A stretch of DNA of 64,000 bases. It comes from Tillus elongatus. Lineage: Eukaryota; Arthropoda; Insecta; Coleoptera; Cleridae. Position numbers and translations under genes: made by a program. The notes under the pieces are model-generated. The model saw only the letters and a program-made list of their open reading frames with translations, searched no databases and was not told the DNA's origin. The stretch lies in NCBI GenBank assembly GCA_964006375.1, contig OZ023264.1:15944225-16008224 (forward strand), in the 5' to 3' direction. This document shows, one piece after another, positions 28,417 to 56,486 of the stretch. The first letter of the stretch is position 1. The number at the start of each line of letters is the position of its first letter.

Positions 28417-29860
28417 TTAGTGAATTTTCTGAAAAAATTTTACCAATGAGGAGATCCCGACTTTTTAATTTTGAAAAAATCTCTTCAAATGAGCGCTAAT
28501 TAGGCCCCCTAGAACACATATACGAGGTCAGTTTTATTCCTAACGACTCACATCATACGTTTGCACAAAAAACGGCTAGTTTAAATTTCTTAGTAAATAG
28601 ATTGATCAAATTTCCGTTGACTAAAAATAGATTTAATACTGAATTAAAATACATAAAAAATGTGGCGAGATATAACGGTTACTCGGATGGTTTAATAGAC
28701 AAATTAGTTAACAAACACAGAACAAAGAAAATGATATCTGAATGTACGACATTTAAGAAAGATAAAATAGAGAAAAAATTTGTATGTTTACCTTATGCAC
28801 CACGAATCACAAAGGGTTTGAAAAGTATTTTTAAGAAAGCCGATTTACATTTGACGTTTTCGACGAAAAGTAATTTAAAAAATTTGTTGGGTTATACGAA
28901 AGACAAAGACAAAGTCACTGAAATGTTCGGCATTTATGAGATTAGTTGCAAAGATTGTGATCTTAAATACGTGGGCTAAACTAGGAGAAACATAGCCACC
29001 AGATTGGTACGGTGGACAAATCATGTGTGGCACAACATATATGGGATAATAATCACCACATGCTTGATTCATTAGAAAGTATTTTTATATTAAGGTCTAT
29101 TAAGAACAAAACTTCATTAAACCGTGTGGCACCTGTAATTTCAAGCCCTTTATTTTCTCTTTGCATTTGACCGCTTAAACACTCCTAATTTGTCTGGTAG
29201 AATAATAAATTATTGTCAATAACTCGGCCGGTTTATACATATACTGATCCCTATGTTTGTCTCGACTTAAAGACCTGTTCGATTTGTTGTATCTATGTAG
29301 TCAATATAAATACTTTCACGTAGAATTAAAATCAATATAAATATAGTTTAGTAGTATTTTAGTTGAATTATTTATCCTTTGTTAGAGTTAACATGGTGAG
29401 ACAGACACCTGGGTTTTATTTTTCTATTTAAAAAAGATGAGTTGAGTTGATGTTGTTTATCTCAGCAGATGTCTTTGTCGGCATGATCCAATATCCACAT
29501 AGTAAATTTCTAGATCGAAAGGAAACGTGCTGATTCCTTAAATAACTCCGGTCCTTTAAACCTATATTAGATAAGGGTCATAAATTTATCGACCAGAAGA
29601 TTAAAGCAGGCCTTCGACCTCGTAGTTTCACTGCACGATAGACAAACGATCGTTTTTGGACGACAACTTTACTTCGAACTAGTTCGTTTACCTTGACACG
29701 ATATAAATACACGGGAGCTAGTTTTTTATTTTAGAATTTTCCTCCTCTGAAGATGTTGACATTGTCAACGAAACGATCGTAATGTCTCTGAAATATGTGT
29801 TGTGGTGATTTGGGTGTTCTCCAAGTGTTATTTTCACATAGTCAGTTTCAATTTTTATAT

Positions 29861-31424: not shown

Positions 31425-34400
31425 TTGATATCTTACATATAAGAGAGGCTCCGGTGTTGCTATTTATGTAAGGGATCACATAAAATACAATTTGATCTCT
31501 ACAACGAGCAGTATAGAGCAGGTATGTGTATGCCTGAATATAAACGATAAAAGAATTTTTCTTGCGGCCTTGTATCGTAAACATCAATTGAATTACAAAA
31601 TCTTCATTGATGAACTTGAAAATTTAATTGGAAATGCGCTGCTGCTTACTGATGACATCATCATTTGCGGCGATACGAACATTGATTTACTAAAAGATGA
31701 TTCCATGAGCCGGGCGTATAATGTTTCGCTGAAGGAAATTGGTTTCAGACAAATGATAGAGGATCCAACGCGAAAGGGGGCATTACTGGATCACATTTTG
31801 GTATCAGACAGTGGTATTGTAGTGGCATCAGGTGTTGCGCTGACTGAGATATCGGATCATGATATGGTATATTGTATATTAGACGTGAGAAAGGCTGCTA
31901 GGAAGCCAGTTATCGTGACAAGTCGTGATTACAGGCATTTTAATAATGACTTATTTATGATGGATCCAATTTTCACTGATCTCGATGGCATTTACCACAC
32001 GAGTGATATTGATCAAAAAATTGCAATATTTACCAGCACTATTACTGGACTATTTGACAAGCATGCCCCTTATAAAGTTAAGAAAATCACGAGGACACCG
32101 CAGCCTTGGATAACGGATAATGTAAAAATGCTTATGTCGCTGAGGGATAATGCTAAAGTAAAATATCGTGGGTCCCTGGCTGTGGGGGACTGGAATTACT
32201 ACAAGGCTCTGAGAAATTTTACCAGCGCTACTATACTTAGAGAAAAAAAGGCATACTTTGAATATTCACTGAAAGGTAAAAATATGCGTGATTTATATAG
32301 GGAATTAAATAGACTGAATATTAAAGGTACAGGGACTAGGGTGGGCATTCCTGATAGCTTGAGTGACGTAGATAAGTTAAATGATTATTTTGTGAATAGT
32401 GTTCCTGTGGGTTCTATAAATGATAATTATAAGAGATATTATGCACATATGAAAAGTCCAGCTGATTTTCAATTTGTTCTGGCAGACACAGAAACCATAT
32501 CTAAATGTTTAGATAAAATCAAAAGTAATGCAAGTGGTATTGATAATATAAGTCTTCAAATGTTAAAAACATGTGCACCACGTATTACTCTATACATAAC
32601 TAATATAATTAATTCCTGTATTTTAGCTGGGTATTTTCCAGACATGTGGAAGTGTGCTAGAGTGACGCCTCTGTCGAAGGTTAATGAGCCCACAGAGTTC
32701 AAGGATTTGAGGTCAATTAGTCTGCTGCCAATATTATCAAAGATTTTTGAAAAGGTCCTTTGCCTGCAGCTGAGACAATACCTTGATGAAAATAAGATTT
32801 TGCCGGATGTGCAGTCTGGTTTCAGGCCAAATTTTAGCTGTACAACAGCCCTCTGCAAGGTCAATGATGACATTCTTCAAGCCTGCAATGATGGCAAGTT
32901 TACTGTATTGATTCTTTTGGATTATACAAGGGCATTTGACACCATAAGGCACGATGTTCTGGTAGACATATTGCGTTATATTGGTATTGGCAGCGAATCC
33001 GTTGGGCTTCTGTCTAGTTACCTCACTGGTAGGTCACAGCATGTAGAGTTGCGTGGCAATGTTTCCGCTGCAATTGGGGTGAGTAGAGGTGTACCCCAGG
33101 GTTCAATCCTTGGCCCGCTTTTGTTTACCCTTTATACGCATATTTTTCCAACATTTATAAAAAGCTGTACAATACATATGTATGCGGACGACACGCAGCT
33201 CTATTATTCATTTCCAAGGTCACGACTCGGTGAGGCACTCAGCAAGATAAATGATGATTTGAGGATTGTGAGTGAACTATCGTTGGATCACTCACTGCAT
33301 TTGAATGCAAAAAAGTCTGCAGCAATTGTTTTTGGTCATAAATCAGGTATTGATATTATAAAGCCGCATATAATGCTGAGTGTCAATGGGGAGCCGATAC
33401 CTCTGCTTGAAGAAGTTACGAATCTTGGCCTCACCATGGACGCTACTTTCAGATATCGGAGACACGTTTCCAAATGTTTACAGCGAGGATATGGTGGTTT
33501 AAAGCTACTGTACCCACATAGATCGTATCTTTCGCGTGGACTGAAAACTGTGCTATGTGATTCACTGGTCCTATCGCAGCTGGAGTATTGCTCGCAGGTG
33601 TACTATCCGTGTCTTGATGCCGAGTATATGAGTAGAATACAAAAGTTGCAAAACTCGTGCTTGCGGTTCATTTATGGGGTGCGTAAGTATGATCACATAT
33701 CGCGTGAGCTTAGGGACAGTGGCTGGTTGAACATGAATGACAGAATGACACTACGTAGAGCCTGCTTTTACCATTCTGTAATTCAGTCAGGGTTGCCTCG
33801 GTATTTGTGCAGAAGAATAAGATACCGCACGGATGTGCATAATGTGAACATACGAAAGAAGGATTTATTGTCCGTGCCTAAGCATAAATTGAATATTTAC
33901 AGGCGATCCTTTTCATACGATGTTTGTAGCGTGTACAATAATATACCAGAAGACATGAAAAAGTTATCGGTGCGATCCTTCAGGAAGGCAATGACTGGTT
34001 ATTTGCATGGTAGGCAGTGATGAATGAGCGTGTATGTTTTTTTGTGTGTGTAAAACGTAAAACAGGTGCCCTGCCTTTTTCTCTTTCTTTTTCTCTATCT
34101 TTTTCTTTTTGCTATCATTCTCATGTTCTTTCCCTTTTCCAGGATACTTTTCCGTCCCACAGCCGTGTTTATTATTTGCTCACTAGATGAGGTGCTGATG
34201 AGTGTTCATTGTTTTTGGCCTTGACTGATGTCTCCCATTGCGGTGTGCCAGTATATGTATATAGTATATAGTGGATAGTGTGTATGCTGGGGTTAAGTGG
34301 TAGAGCAGAGCACACGCTTATGTGTTGCACTGAACTTCGCCCCTGTACTACATTGTAGGTTATATTCTTGTTGTGAATTTTGTATAGTTTAGTTTGGTTG

Positions 34401-40584: not shown

Positions 40585-42529
<1,945 letters not shown>

Positions 42530-44073: not shown

Positions 44074-46044
44074 CTACATACAGACTTGGAGACTACTTCT
44101 CTGGCTTCACTGTTGGTTTTCGTTTTTGTAGGTGAAGGACGCAGCCAGCGCGTAAGCTAACTGGAGAAAGTGGCCCTTATGAGTTCTGGGTGTTCTAGGA
44201 TGTTCTTCAACGTTTCTGTGACTAGTTTCCCTGCTTGGCAGCATTCTCAGACAGATAAAAATTGAATTAGTACGAAATCATGACAACTACAAATAAAGAT
44301 CTGTTGCTATGTTATGATATAATGTTTTGATCCAAAAAACTATCAAATTGAAAATAAAATGAAACACAGATGACAGATGTGGCTTTCAAAATGTCTACGT
44401 GATGTATGTCAATATTTAACATAAAAATGGAACCAGCATATAATAACTATGAAAACAGTTACAACAATAAAATAACTAAACAACAACAGTATAAAAGCCG
44501 TCTCTATACAACGAAATGATTGACATACATCAACTCATTATCTTATTACAACTTTTTTGAAAGAATAGTTAAATTTATTTTCTTTGACTTATTTAATTAG
44601 AAAGGAGAATATCCAAGAAAGGGGAATTCATTAAATCAGTTTGCTCGTTTAAAACAAGGTAGCTATTGTCGTGTGTGTGTTTTGACTTATAAAGCTTCAA
44701 AATCTAGTTTACGTTAGTCATTATAAAAATGTTGTGGTTGTATGCGGTTATTTACTGTAGGTCTATGTTCGGTATCAATAATATGTTTTGCAAATGTAGA
44801 TTTGTCATCGTGATTATTTCTAAATGCAGAAATATGTTCTTTGTATCGGGTGTTAAAATTTCTAGAAGTTTGACCTATGTAGATTGCGTTACAATGTGTA
44901 CAAGCTAATTTATAAACTCCAGCTCTTGTCAGGAAACAAGATTTTTCTCTCGCGTTAAATAGTAAATCACGCCTCGTGTTGTAAGATTTAAAAGCTACCT
45001 TTGTATTTGTACAGGTATTTAAAATTTTTGAAATGTTTTCCGAAATGGTTCCAAAATAAGTTATCGAAACGTATCTGTTGTCTTCTTTGCCTCTAATATT
45101 GGGATAAATTAATTAATCGCTAATTTGTATTCTTTTCTCTCGATCACTTTATCCATTATTTTAACAGAGTAGCCATTATTAAATGCTGTTTGCTTAATTA
45201 TTGAAATTTCTTTCTCAAAATTGTTTTGTGACATAGGTATTGAAAATGCACGATGAATCATAGAATGGTAGGCTGACAGCTTTTGTGAAAAAGGGTGACA
45301 TGAATCGTATGGTATGGTTGTGTCAGTGTAAGTTGGTTTCCTATATATTGAAAAGTCAAATTAATTATTTTCTAACTTTCTAATTGTTAAGTCTAAAAAA
45401 TTTATTCAACTGGTAGCTTCTTCTTCTAAAGTAAACTTAATATTTGTGTGAAAGTTATTAATAAAATTCAAAAATTCATTTAATTCTGTATGACTACCTT
45501 GAAAACATGCTAAAATATCATCTACGTATCTGTACCAAAAGACAATATTATGCGAAAGTTCTGATGTTAAAATTTGTTTTTCTAAGTTTTCCATAAATAT
45601 GTTGGCTAATAAAGGTGATAACGGACTACCCATAGGTAGGCCTTCATTTTGCATATAAATTTTATTATTGAATTTAGTTTTGTTTTATACATTCGTTAAA
45701 AAGATACATTATTTCTTGTCTTTTTATGACATTTACGTTCTTTTCTATTAAAACGTTTTCTAATAGAGGTAAACATTCTCTAGGGGGTATCTTAGAATAC
45801 ACGCTACAAACATCAAACGAGACTAATTTACTATTTGTGGGAATAATTAAATTATGAACTTACACAAAAATTAAATGTCAAGCAACGAAACTAGTCACAG
45901 AAACGTTGAAGAACATCCTAGAACATCCAGAATTCATAAGGGCCACTTGCTCCAGTTAGCTAACGCGCTGGCTACGTCCTTCATCTAGAAAAACGAAAAC
46001 CAACAGTGAGACCAGAGAAGTAGTCTCCAAGTCTGTATGTAGCA
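44074..46044 (-). mobile_element. Penelope-like element between ~165-bp inverted arms, degraded
   Basis: Arms at 44074-44240 and 45877-46044 are inverted copies (shared GACTTGGAGACTACTTCTC, GGCCCTTATGA, ACGTTTCTGTGACTAG). Between them on the minus strand lies the RT. KLVSFDVCSVYSKIPPREC near 45800 is its first palm block. After a frame change QNEGLPMGSPLSPLLANIF follows, then FWYRYVDDILACFQGS with the catalytic YVDD near 45520. After stops come the linker (KEISIIKQTAFNNGYSVK) and the GIY-YIG nuclease near 44690-44937: RAGVYKLACTHCNAIYIGQT, then YKEHISAFRNN. Order and motifs are diagnostic for Penelope-like elements. Several frame changes and stops show it is dead. Long inverted arms are compatible with the variable inverted LTR structures known for this group. 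Confidence 0.85.
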
Positions 46045-46512: not shown

Positions 46513-47170
46513 ATGGGTGATCGGTTTAGGGTTCTGTGCAGTTCTGAAAAAATACTGTGGTACAGGGCGTTCTATTTCGTTTGCAATTGGTGGAAATATC
46601 GGTTATTACTAATGATAGAACCTTGCGGTTTTTGGGAAGCTGAGCTACCTTTCTGTGAAACGAAAGATGGCGCAAACAAAATTGTCATAGCCCTCTTAGT
46701 TTGCGAGTTACAGGGCGATATCGAAAATATAGCATTTTCAGGTACTCCTTGTATTTGAGTTGTCTGATAGTTGACGGCCCCTGCTGATAACTTGTGAAAT
46801 GTAAATATGAGTACTTACATACTCGGTGGCAGAGTTCGCATACGCCTCGACGTTGCTTAAATGAAGTTAAAGCAATGTCAAGCACGGTCAGTTTCCAGTT
46901 TGATTACCGGGTTGTAATACCCGGGTCTGAATGTTTGTAGAAAACTTTTTTGTGTAAAATAGTGTTTACTAAATTTTTGTAAAAATATAAAAAAACTACA
47001 ATTTTTCATAAGAAAATATATGTTTTAATGACTTTCCGTGAAAAAATCACCAAATTTTTAAGACAACATTCTTTTTAGCGAAATTCAATAGACCCTTTCA
47101 GTAAATAATTGTTTTAGCATTATTTCTTACATACATTTATTTGTACTTTTCGTAAAAAAAAAAACCACAA
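46513..47170 (-). repeat. Unclassified repeat, copy of 50.6-50.73 plus 52.63-52.88 kb
   Basis: From about 46755 to 47170 this is the reverse complement of the unclassified repeat on both sides of the retrozyme-like element (shared AAGTCATTAAAACAT, TTTTCTACA, CGGTAA, AAGCAACGTCG). This uninterrupted copy shows where the retrozyme landed. The part 46513-46755 has no counterpart in the window. Confidence 0.6.
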
Positions 47171-50589: not shown

Positions 50590-50989
50590 GCTGAAACGTT
50601 TTTTTTAACGAAATAAATTTGTAAGAAATAATGTTAAAACAATTATTTACCGAAAGGGTTTATTGAATTTCGCTAAGATGAATGTTGCCTTAAAAATTTG
50701 GTAACTTTTTCACGGAAAGTCATTAAAACATGTTCTAATTGTTGCGAGAATGCATCCAGCCTTACATACTTTGTCACTATATTAGGGTGGAAATGTGCCA
50801 GGACTAACAATTTACTAAATTGTTAGTTAGTTGTATACAGTCTCTATTTTTTAACACTTTGTGTTATTTGGAGCTGGCGTGACAGCATACTAGTTGGTTC
50901 CGCAACTAGGTGGCGGCACGTTCACCACTCACTTAGTGTTGAAAGGCTGGCTACTATAGCCATATTACTTTATAGGTGTACTTTCGCTG

Positions 50990-51050
50990 CAATTAGTATG
51001 CCGTACTGAAGAGCTCTAATGAGAGCGAAACCGGTCTACGGTTCTAATTG
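50990..51050 (+). ncRNA. Type I hammerhead ribozyme, copy 1
   Basis: All parts are present in order. The 5' strand of stem I is CAATTAG, four unpaired bases, then CCGTA. Next come the core CTGAAGA (51006-51012), stem II GCTCT/AGAGC with an AATG loop, and the core GAAA (51027-51030). Stem III is ACC/GGT, followed by the cleavage C at 51036. The 3' strand is TACGG, TT, CTAATTG. Stem I pairs 5 bp, has an internal loop, then 7 bp more. ACCGGT is self-complementary with no loop, so a single molecule cannot close stem III well, but two molecules in tandem or as a dimer could. Such short stem III hammerheads are known from PLE and retrozyme elements. Confidence 0.85.
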
Positions 51051-51317
51051 TTGAGAGAATGCATCTAGCCTTACATCCATTGTCTCTATATTAGGGAAGA
51101 AATGGGCCAGAGCTGGCAATTTAGAAAATTGTTAGTTGGTTGCATACAGTCGCTTTTTTTTCAACACTGTGTTATTTGGAGCTGGCGTGCCAACATACTA
51201 CTTGGTTTCGCAACTAGGTGGCGGCACGTTGCTTCGTGTCTCACCACTCACTTAGTGTTGGAAGGCTGGCTACCATAGCCGTATTACTTTATAGGTGTAT
51301 TTTTGCTACAATTAGTA

Positions 51318-52529
51318 GTTTAACAAAAACAAGTCAACTGATGCAATATTTCTCAACATTACTCAAGCCTTCGACAGGGGTTGGCATGCGGGCCTCCTAA
51401 ATAAACTTATATCATTTAATTATCCTCTCCCTCTGATTCTGCTAATCAGGTCATACCTGCAATAGAAGAAGTTCTAGGTCAAACATCTGGGAACCAGATC
51501 TAGATCCTACTCAGCCGCGGCTGGCCTCCCGCAGGGTTCTACTATCTCCCCTCTGCTGTACAATATATTTGTCGCAGACATACGGACACCGCCACTAAAC
51601 TTGACATACGCACTGTACGCAGACGACACTACCATCCTCAGCAGCTCCACTCAGCCAAGGATAATAACCGAACGTCTACGGACAGCCGTAGACGAGCTGC
51701 AACGCTGGTATAGTAAAGCATGTCTAGCCATAAACCCCGATAAATGTTCAGCAGTCCTATTTTCCAAGAGGAGACAAACACCCCACGAACACGAATCATT
51801 AAACAACCGTCTAATTCCCTGGCAACATTCCGCCAAATACCTCGAAGTTTTCCTCGACAAACACTTAACATAGTACCCCCATGTCGATCACCCCCGACGA
51901 AAACTCTCGATGTTCATCTCGAAGCTGTTCCCACTTCTGAATAGAAATTTCAAATTGTCCATGAACAATAAGTTGCTCATGTACAAAGTCATTATCCGGC
52001 CAGCCATGACCTATGCATCCCCTGCATGGGCCACCGCGGCCGCAACACACATCAAGGCCCTTCAAATCATCCAGAATAAAATTCTGAGAATGGTTACCGG
52101 AGCGCCATGGTTTGTCAGAAACAGTCAGATTCATTCTGATCTGGAAATGCCTTCGATACTTGAGTTTATAACTCAACTATCCACAACTCAGTTCGCTAAA
52201 GCCGCTTCTCACCCAAATCCTCTTCTCCGTAGTGCCACCGACTACGATGAGCAGCTTCCATATAAGCATAAGCGTCCAAAGCTTATACTTACCCGCTAAC
52301 GCCCCCGCGGCAAAATGAGAATGGAAACATTCAAACCCAAAAGTCATTGTGTGTATTCTTTCCGACGGAGGTATGGACTAAGGTCCGGTACTCCTAGGGA
52401 GGGAGTTTTAGTGAGTAGGTGTACTAAGAGTACGAGTCTCACAGTACCCCCTTATCCCACGGCACTACGGTGTCATGAATGAGGTCTGCATGAGGCATCT
52501 CTCCCTCCTGTATCCGAAAATATATATTT
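51318..52529 (+). pseudogene. Jockey-type retrotransposon, 5'-truncated, inserted in the retrozyme
   Basis: The frame starts in the palm domain (NKNKSTDAIFLNITQAFDRG) and, after small frame changes, gives AAAGLPQGSTISPLLYNIFV and TYALYADDTTILSS with the catalytic pair. WYSKACLAINPDKCSAVLFS and, after a TAG near 51872, KLSMFISKLFPLLNRN, MYKVIIRPAMTYASPAWAT and NKILRMVTGAPWFVRN follow, ending at 52299. The 3' region (CGGCACTACGGTGTC, then CTCCCTCCTGTATCC) ends near 52516. It is flanked by ATTTTTGCTACAATTAGTA at 51299-51317 and a copy with two mismatches at 52530-52548. This 19-bp duplication is typical of target-primed insertion. It closely resembles the minus copy at 35-37.2 kb. Confidence 0.85.
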
Positions 52530-52539
52530 ATTTTTGCTT

Positions 52540-52600
52540 TAATTAGTATGCCGTACTGAAGAGCTCTAATGAGAGCGAAACTGGTCTACGGTTCTAATTG
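52540..52600 (+). ncRNA. Type I hammerhead ribozyme, copy 2
   Basis: Identical core (CTGAAGA, GAAA), stem II and proximal stem I to copy 1. Stem III reads ACTGGT, with one G-U pair in place of G-C. The first base of the distal stem I is T, which still allows a wobble pair. Cleavage is expected after C 52586. The 5' edge lies in the right-hand target duplication of the jockey insertion, which thus rebuilt the ribozyme. Confidence 0.8.
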
Positions 52601-52880
52601 TTGCGAGAATGCATCTAGTCTTATATATTTGCTTATGAAAAATTGTAATTAAAAAATATATATTTATTAAAATTTACTGAACACTAATTTACACAAAAAA
52701 AGTTTTCTACATACTTTCAGACCCGGATATTACAACCCGGTAACCCAACTGGGAACTGACCGTGCTCGACATTGGTTAACTTCATTTAAGCAACGTCGGG
52801 GCGTATACGAACTGTGTCACCGAGTATCTAAGTAAGTACTGATATTTACATTTCACAAGTTATGAGCAGGGTGCGTCAAC

Positions 52881-53044: not shown

Positions 53045-53870
<826 letters not shown>

Positions 53871-54300: not shown

Positions 54301-54412
54301 CGCATTTCACTCATTCCGATAAGAAATGTGCTGATAGTCAATGTTTTGTTGGTTTGTAAACAAAAAAATGACTATCAGAACATTTCTTATCGGAATGAGA
54401 GAAATGCGGTTT
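54301..54412. repeat. ~40-bp-arm hairpin inside the mariner-like element
   Basis: The arms CATTTCACTCATTCCGATAA (left) and TTATCGGAATGAGAGAAATG (right) pair over about 40 bp around a 27-bp loop. It lies between the inverted repeat and the transposase start, so it could act as a terminus sub-structure or be a small insertion. Confidence 0.6.
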
Positions 54413-54739: not shown

Positions 54740-56486
54740 CACACCGATAACTCAAAAAATAATGCGCCGATTTTGATAAAATTTGGCATGTAACTTTCTT
54801 TTGTAAATGGCTTGGATAAGTTCGTTAGTCCGGAAAATCGGACGAGGTTTTCCGGGAAAATTTTGAGTTTTCATTCGAAAAAAATTCTTATCTCAAAAAA
54901 TAATGGGCCGATTTTAATAAAATTTGGCATGTACCTTCCTTTTGTAAATGGCTTTGACAAGTTTGTTAATTAGGAAAATCGGATGAGGTTTTCCGGAAAA
55001 ATTTTGTGTTTTCATTCGAAAAAAAAAATTATCTCAGAGAATAAAAAGCCGATTTTGATAAAATTTGGCATATACCTTCCTTTTGTAAATGGCTTTGACA
55101 AGTTTGTTAGTCAGGAAAATCGGACGAGGTTTTCCGGAAAAATTTTGAGTTTTCTTTCTAAAAAAACTTGTATCTCAGAAAATAATAGGCCGATTTTGAT
55201 AAAATTTGGCATGTACCTTCCTTTTATAAATGGCTTTGATAAGTTCGTTAATCAGAAAAATCGGACGAGGTTTTCTGGGAAAATTTTCAGTTTTTATTTA
55301 AAAAATAAAAAATCTATGATAACCAAATTTGGTAGGTAGGTTTATGATATAAAAAGTAAACTATACACCAAAATTTAGATTTCTATGCTACAAGAAAAAA
55401 AAGTTATAATAAAATATTTTGTGCCAGATAATTTCTATGAAAATTCACTACCATAACGCACTTGCTGCATCCAGGCTTTTTTTTGAAAAACGATGACTAA
55501 GCCAACCGTACCGCAAATTTGTTTAATGAACGACATCCGAACAGACATGTTAACTGAAAATACATTTTGGAGTTAGTTGCAAAAAACGGGATCCTGAATG
55601 TGAATTTCCGGTTAGAAATGAGACTACTGAGATTGAAGTTTTAGGACAAATTGCTGCAGACCCAACTTTGAGCACGAAAAAATTGGCCACTGTTTCAAAC
55701 ATCAAAAGAAGAACTATTCAGCGAATATTGAAGCATCATAAATTTCACCAGTATAAAATTAATCTTGTACAACAGCTGAAAGAATATGATTTTGATCGGT
55801 GGCTGGAGTTTTGTGAAGTTATGACTGCACGAATAGCTGATAATGGGAAATTTCTGTTCAATATCTGTTTTTCAGACGAGTGTACGTTTTTATTAAACTC
55901 TACAGTCAATCATCATAATTGTCGTTATTGGGCGGATAATAATCCAAGAAATTTTCACGAAGTCCACACTCAAACTCCACAGAAATTGAATGTCTGGACT
56001 GGCATTTTTGGAGACCGTTTAATCGGACCAATTTTTCTTGATTGCAATTGGAGTGGCGAAACGTATTTGGAGTTACTAGAAGATATCGTTTACCCTCTGC
56101 TAATTGACATTGTTGAAAATGATGATCGCTATCAAGAAAATCAATTAGTGTTTCAACAAGATGGAGCTCCTCCGCATTTTTCACAACGTGTTAGGGAGTT
56201 CTTGAACAGAAAGCTTCCAGAGCAATGGATTGGGCGTAGAAGTGCTATTAAGTGGCCCTCTAGATCACCGGATTTAACTCCTTTAGACTTCTTTCTATGG
56301 GGCCATTTAAAGAGTAGAATTTACGCAACAGAACCGGAGTCTCTGGAAGAATTACGACGATGCATTATTGAAGAATGCCGTCTAATAACTCCACAAATGC
56401 TCTAGAATGTCAGAGCTCGTTTTGAACAAAATTTGTACTTTTGTATGGAAGCTGGTGGTCAACAATTTGAACACTTACTTAACTGA
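54473..56486 (+). pseudogene. DUF4817-type mariner transposase, interrupted
   Basis: The N terminus MVYSVEERVEIITL (54473-54516) is cut by a Helentron-like insertion (54517-55475). The HTH region resumes in one frame as ANRTANLFNERHPNRHVN, then KYILELVAKNGILN, with two stop codons. It shifts frame near 55600 to ECEFPVRNETTEIEVLGQIA. The catalytic domain is open: FSDECTFLLN holds the first aspartate, LVFQQDGAPPHFSQRV the second, and WPSRSPDLTPLDFFLWG the third at 34-residue spacing. A TAG at 56403-56405 sits where relatives have a short C-terminal helix. In-frame sequence continues (NVRARFEQNLYFC) to a TGA at 56484-56486, so it is probably a nonsense mutation. The family cuts and pastes at TA. 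This copy cannot make a full protein. Confidence 0.85.
54517..55475 (+). mobile_element. Helentron-like element nested in the mariner transposase
   Basis: Begins AGTGAATTTTCGTAG after a T run and ends with the right hairpin (CATAACGCACTTGCTGC) and CCAGG near 55475, before another T run. (TA)n at about 54648-54731. The body holds four tandem copies of a roughly 120-bp block (GGCCGATTTTGATAAAATTT, then TTTTCCGGGAAAATTTTG). Insertion between T runs, without an obvious duplication, fits Helentron-type insertion between two Ts. Confidence 0.75.

Follow-up and report, generated by a model that had tools for sequence, protein, structure and literature searches.

A hammerhead ribozyme motif with a palindromic stem III in the beetle Tillus elongatus belongs to an old tandem array that is very probably a decayed non-LTR retrozyme

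A hammerhead-like motif whose stem III is self-complementary and lacks a loop raises the question of whether it is a genuine ribozyme motif and, if so, what kind of element carries it and how that element reached its present site. The motif lies in a 64,000-nt stretch of the T. elongatus genome (contig OZ023264.1 of assembly GCA_964006375.1, positions 15,944,225 to 16,008,224 of the forward strand; hereafter the window, numbered from its first letter), in which a preliminary description had assigned the segment 50990-51050 to a complete type I hammerhead.

The motif, ribozyme 1 (50988-51058, plus strand), was recognized by an Rfam match, a descriptor match and folding. Its core letters were CTGAAGA at 51006-51012, GAAA, the palindrome ACCGGT forming a loop-less stem III at 51030-51035 (plus strand), and GTC up to 51036 (C17), after which cleavage is predicted, and stem I enclosed all of these. 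The sequence together with folding gave a stem II of 5 bp (GCTCT/AGAGC) closed by an AATG loop, and stem I was made up of two parts with an internal loop between them, so that ribozyme 1 has both a stem I internal loop and a stem II loop. The proximal part comprised 6 bp with the core kept free (five plus one G-U), and the distal part comprised 6 bp in a 62-nt piece and 8 bp in a 71-nt piece. The conserved core letters, stem II and the self-complementary stem III were accordingly just as the preliminary description had given them, and the two-part stem I with its loop was also recovered, with the lengths above in place of the 5 bp and 7 bp that it had stated. The 71-nt piece folded at -23.1 kcal/mol versus a shuffle mean of -13.4 kcal/mol (z = -4.0), 1 of 200 dinucleotide shuffles being as good; its minimum-energy fold paired some of the core letters and was not exactly the catalytic fold.

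In the covariance search, ribozyme 1 matched Rfam Hammerhead_HH9 (RF02275), the sole hammerhead family listed, from end to end (model positions 1-77 of 77; 31.6 bits), with an E value of 1.1e-5 when 1,301 bases were searched and of 5.6e-4 when the whole window was searched. Five stem III positions of the model, however, were deleted in ribozyme 1, and the score remained below the gathering score of 52 bits; nothing in the window attained a gathering score. In the whole-window listing, the two hammerhead matches stood at rows 9 and 13 of 22, and 18 of the remaining 20 rows were microRNA models, and thus the Rfam score alone would not settle the call. A descriptor matching the motif, which specified the core, a stem II of at least 4 pairs, a loop-less stem III of 3 pairs and a stem I of at least 5, found two sites on the plus strand of the window, none on its minus strand and none in 600 first-order Markov windows. 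A looser descriptor returned the same two window sites but also three in 100 first-order Markov windows, and is therefore insufficient by itself against chance.

The three Markov matches and the sub-threshold Rfam score are what could be said for a hammerhead likeness arisen by chance in AT-rich repeat DNA. Against the empty result in 600 windows with the matching descriptor, the full-length model match and the hammerhead kept in the next unit (see below), the probability of such a coincidence appeared practically negligible, and it was rejected on the second copy, the two Rfam matches and the descriptor control. The same control upheld the earlier view that all of the pairings would very rarely occur together at random, and the descriptor search that had been proposed as a check came out in favor of the motif; the covariance search proposed beside it did so in part, giving the full-length match at E = 5.6e-4 for the window with a score under the gathering value. 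Given the core, this full-length match, the descriptor control and the second tandem copy, the assignment to a complete type I hammerhead, with its conserved core and with stems II and III enclosed by an open stem I, was well supported; judged by its letters, the motif at 50990-51050 is real as described, and its self-cleavage is predicted. The 26-letter core did not occur in viral contigs or in prokaryote (bacterial and archaeal) genome contigs, nor did a looser pattern in viral contigs, results that say little about animals.

The second hammerhead, ribozyme 2 (52538-52608, plus strand), has ACTGGT as stem III and matched HH9 with 29.1 bits (E = 3.6e-3), its predicted cleavage falling after C52586; over the core at 52556-52586, it differed from ribozyme 1 at 1 of 31 letters. 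The preliminary description had reported the motif without a second copy or an array, and this picture was extended by self-comparison and by comparison with an empty site (see below), which delimited an old inserted array at 50732-52622 (plus strand) including a nested LINE. The array, which we read as a retrozyme, amounts to about 2.1 units. Unit 1 (50732-51036) has a length of 309 nt, of which 305 are present and the first 4 are missing; unit 2, aligned with it, consists of a first part at 51037-51317 and a last part at 52549-52586, totaling 319 nt without the LINE and one copy of its target duplication; and a third unit is represented by its first 36 nt (52587-52622), which equal unit 2 at 34 of 36 positions and unit 1 at 30 of 32. 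All of these parts lie on the plus strand, and units 1 and 2 are joined head to tail with no coding part between them. Their GC contents were 41.3% and 42.9%, respectively, and no open reading frame of at least 80 aa overlapped 50732-51317 or 52549-52622.

In the alignment of the two units, 272 of the 304 ungapped positions were equal, and the 16 gapped positions were the 4 nucleotides missing from unit 1 plus two gaps of 11 nt and 1 nt. The ribozyme tail was kept at 47 of 49 positions versus 225 of 255 in the unit body, a difference that was not significant (p = 0.13) and did not support selection on the ribozyme letters. When folded as circles, unit 1 (minus its 4 missing nucleotides) and unit 2 gave z values of -6.7 and -4.4, each below 100 shuffles that preserved mononucleotides, not dinucleotides. 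Self-comparison of the window found the array once, with no matches elsewhere beyond those of the LINE, the flanks and one 25-base match, the last of which arises from a hairpin within unit 1, its arms matching each other. Elsewhere in the window, a tandem array of a different unit (141 bp, 3.9 copies) was seen at 54751-55305, and stretches related to it lie by (TA)n runs at many places.

Unit 2 is interrupted by a 5'-truncated LINE fragment (51318-52529, plus strand). Its segment 51319-52524 was 88% identical across 1215 aligned bases to a sister copy (36151-34973, minus strand) that extends further upstream, and the piece 51478-51870 matched RVT_1 (E = 6.4e-18). By eye, the fragment was bounded by a 19-bp target duplication, whose left copy (51299-51317, plus strand) equals the right copy (52530-52548, plus strand) at 17 of 19 positions. 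Since the distal strand of stem I in ribozyme 2 lies inside the right copy, both ribozymes are complete even though unit 2 is split. That the units might instead be terminal repeats of the LINE was rejected, because the sister copy extends upstream without such repeats and the 19-bp duplication encloses the insert. From this nested arrangement, the LINE is judged to have split unit 2 after the array had been inserted, and the array copy itself, by the 32 of 304 positions at which its units differ and the 12% divergence of the LINE from its sister copy, is judged old and decayed.

Several further elements of the window were recorded in their own right. A LINE frame of 863 aa at 31429-34017 (plus strand), open from stop to stop and having endonuclease and RT domains, is probably the best-kept mobile element among those looked at; among the best 120 of 166 protein matches to a LINE of the window, those with names came from Plutella, Popillia and an Aquifex metagenome bin. 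A pogo-like DDE transposase frame was observed at 41078-42526 (plus strand), its start extending into a (TA)n run. Within the best 120 of 505 matches to this transposase, the best named proteins were from Acanthoscelides, Anoplophora and Aromia among other arthropods, and these three nearest named relatives are all beetles. Long near-perfect palindromes at 53490-53675 and 54313-54396 matched microRNA models below their gathering scores, and by their look are probably ends of mobile elements, not microRNAs.

How the array came to its site was addressed by an uninterrupted paralogue of the insertion site, which was found at 46768-47142 on the minus strand and aligned with 91% identity over 123 bases of the left flank and 86% over 260 bases of the right flank. 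The left flank 50611-50731 matches 47142-47020, and the right flank 52624-52882 matches 47020-46768, both in minus orientation. When the joined flanks were compared with this empty site, the sole extra bases at the junction were one AT (left AT, 50730-50731, plus strand; right AT, 52623-52624), which indicates insertion of the array into an older repeat, any duplication being 2 bp at most. The AT itself possibly represents either a 2-bp target duplication or a change of length in a short AT run. The comparison likewise places the ends of the array within a base or two: it begins 4 nt and finishes 36 nt past the cleavage position.

The empty site also bears on whether the array is a piece of hammerhead-bearing satellite DNA that spread by unequal exchange rather than by retroposition. 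Its units are indeed in tandem, and hammerheads are known in insect satellite DNA, as reported for Dolichopoda cave crickets in PMC2837043; the locus, however, holds only about 2.1 units, and these form a clean insertion in a dispersed repeat of which an uninterrupted paralogue exists. We regard a satellite origin as highly improbable, and the two readings overlap in any case, in that PMC7229834 counts such animal repeats as retrozymes.

Animal non-LTR retrozymes, as characterized in PMC7229834 (Cervera and de la Pena) and PMC7761336, are tandemly arranged units of 150-450 bp that are low in GC and carry type I hammerheads, insects being among their hosts, and their circular RNA has been shown in a coral, a mussel and axolotl. 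The present array resembles those in PMC7229834 in the size of its units (309 and 319 nt), each short tandem unit carrying a type I hammerhead (two ribozymes in all), in its low GC content, in the absence of a coding frame, and in being a copy inserted at a new site as revealed by the paralogous empty site. It is unlike them in the loop-less palindromic stem III, in the nested LINE and in a target duplication of no more than the AT, whereas the duplications noted in that source are longer than 4 bp; the source gives this figure for duplications "when present," and a longer one is thus not required. Taken together, the array is very probably a decayed animal non-LTR retrozyme carrying this hammerhead, a reading in which cleavage, RNA circles and a helper are presumed, and the locus adds one more example to an already published class.

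PMC7229834 and PMC7761336 state that retrozymes are probably mobilized by Penelope-like elements, and a possible relative of such a helper was present outside the array, 5 kb away, as a frame-broken element at 44717-45859 on the minus strand. In this element, an RVT_1 match (45409-45684; E = 2.1e-13) was followed by a GIY-YIG match (44717-45112; E = 6.4e-5, 23.6 bits versus a cut-off of 22.6), the order of a Penelope-like element, and no Pfam match was obtained for 45112-45360 or 45677-45859. A second likely Penelope-like remnant was seen by eye at 28500-28976 (plus strand), with no Pfam match there or in the piece that follows. These remains show only that the family entered this genome in the past.

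Such remains, of one or two elements, and the form of stem III also led us to consider the array as the remaining pseudo-LTR of a Penelope-like element whose reading frame is gone, given that Penelope-like elements carry dimer-type hammerheads and sit in tandem according to PMC7761336 and PMC11167929. Their minimal hammerheads, as portrayed in the former, share with the present ones a short stem III, the tandem arrangement and a reported dimer cleavage, while the stem I seen here is set apart by its internal loop and distal helix. Moreover, the array contains no Penelope-like frame; its interrupter is a LINE fragment with a separate target duplication and a sister at another place in the window, its units directly adjoin head to tail, and its self-comparison yielded no outside matches beyond those listed above. 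Neither did a descriptor permitting a short stem III find a hammerhead near the Penelope-like remains, both of its matches in the window falling within the array. As an RT and GIY-YIG frame between the repeats was not found, this origin was rejected, and we consider it very unlikely.

Returning to the retrozyme, its stem III of three pairs without a loop cannot close within one strand, which fits cleavage as a dimer or tandem transcript, as had been suggested. In the two-strand fold with the core kept free, ribozyme 1 formed all six ACCGGT pairs at -39.9 kcal/mol, compared with -15.5 kcal/mol for one strand (-31.0 when doubled). This self-pairing and the published precedents spoke for the suggestion, whereas the unconstrained folds of ribozyme 1 tied up core letters (-18.7 kcal/mol for one strand and -41.6 for two), and the constrained two-strand fold of ribozyme 2 (-35.0 kcal/mol) formed no stem III. 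The energy model holds no tertiary contacts, and thus dimer action rests on sequence and precedent. As to the latter, dimer action together with a weak or palindromic stem III is noted for newt and axolotl hammerheads in PMC7229834, has been suggested for an Aedes hammerhead in PMC3088659, and has been reported as dimer cleavage for the hammerheads of Penelope-like elements in PMC7761336. The newt and axolotl repeats of the HHR_Amex1 type come close to the present array in their very weak, palindrome-capable stem III and in units of about 330 bp, a likeness by description rather than by alignment of unit sequences, and one that spans from amphibian-type repeats to an arthropod host. Most invertebrate retrozyme hammerheads, according to PMC7761336, possess a stable stem III and act singly, which makes the present one a less common kind among invertebrates.

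On the retrozyme reading, each hammerhead in a read-through transcript of the array would cleave it after GTC, and stem III, being a loop-less palindrome, would most likely bring two hammerheads together as a double ribozyme. A host ligase would then close the unit-length RNAs, about 310-320 nt, into circles, which the reverse transcriptase of another element, most likely a Penelope-like one, would copy more than once in rolling-circle fashion and insert as a multimer. The locus would be the end product of such a process: an older repeat received about 2.1 units at an AT-rich site, and the copy was subsequently split by a LINE and decayed. In vitro results for a Penelope-like element in PMC11167929 bear on this scheme in two ways: the preference for AT-rich sites agrees with the insertion site observed here, whereas the finding that hammerhead cleavage was not needed for insertion makes a simple connection of ribozyme and helper less secure.

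The array ends may further record the copying itself. On an RNA circle, reverse transcription could have begun 36 nt beyond the cleavage site and ended, after about 2.1 rounds, 4 nt beyond it, the product entering AT-rich DNA and duplicating an AT in a manner conceivable for a Penelope-like enzyme; and because the LINE insertion left both ribozymes complete, the locus could in addition release a 1,550-nt RNA (51037-52586), perhaps as a circle, that carries the LINE fragment. We offer this combined proposal as a speculative and rather unlikely one; if true, such release would allow retrozymes to transport sequence of foreign origin.

The mechanism by which animal retrozymes move is unsettled, and Penelope-like elements are their suspected helpers, as stated in PMC7229834 and PMC7761336. 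A locus having an empty site, array ends placed within a base or two and a ribozyme of the dimer type provides a concrete case to set against other copies, and if the same start and stop, measured from the cleavage site, recur in many of these, genome sequence alone could reveal how the element is copied.
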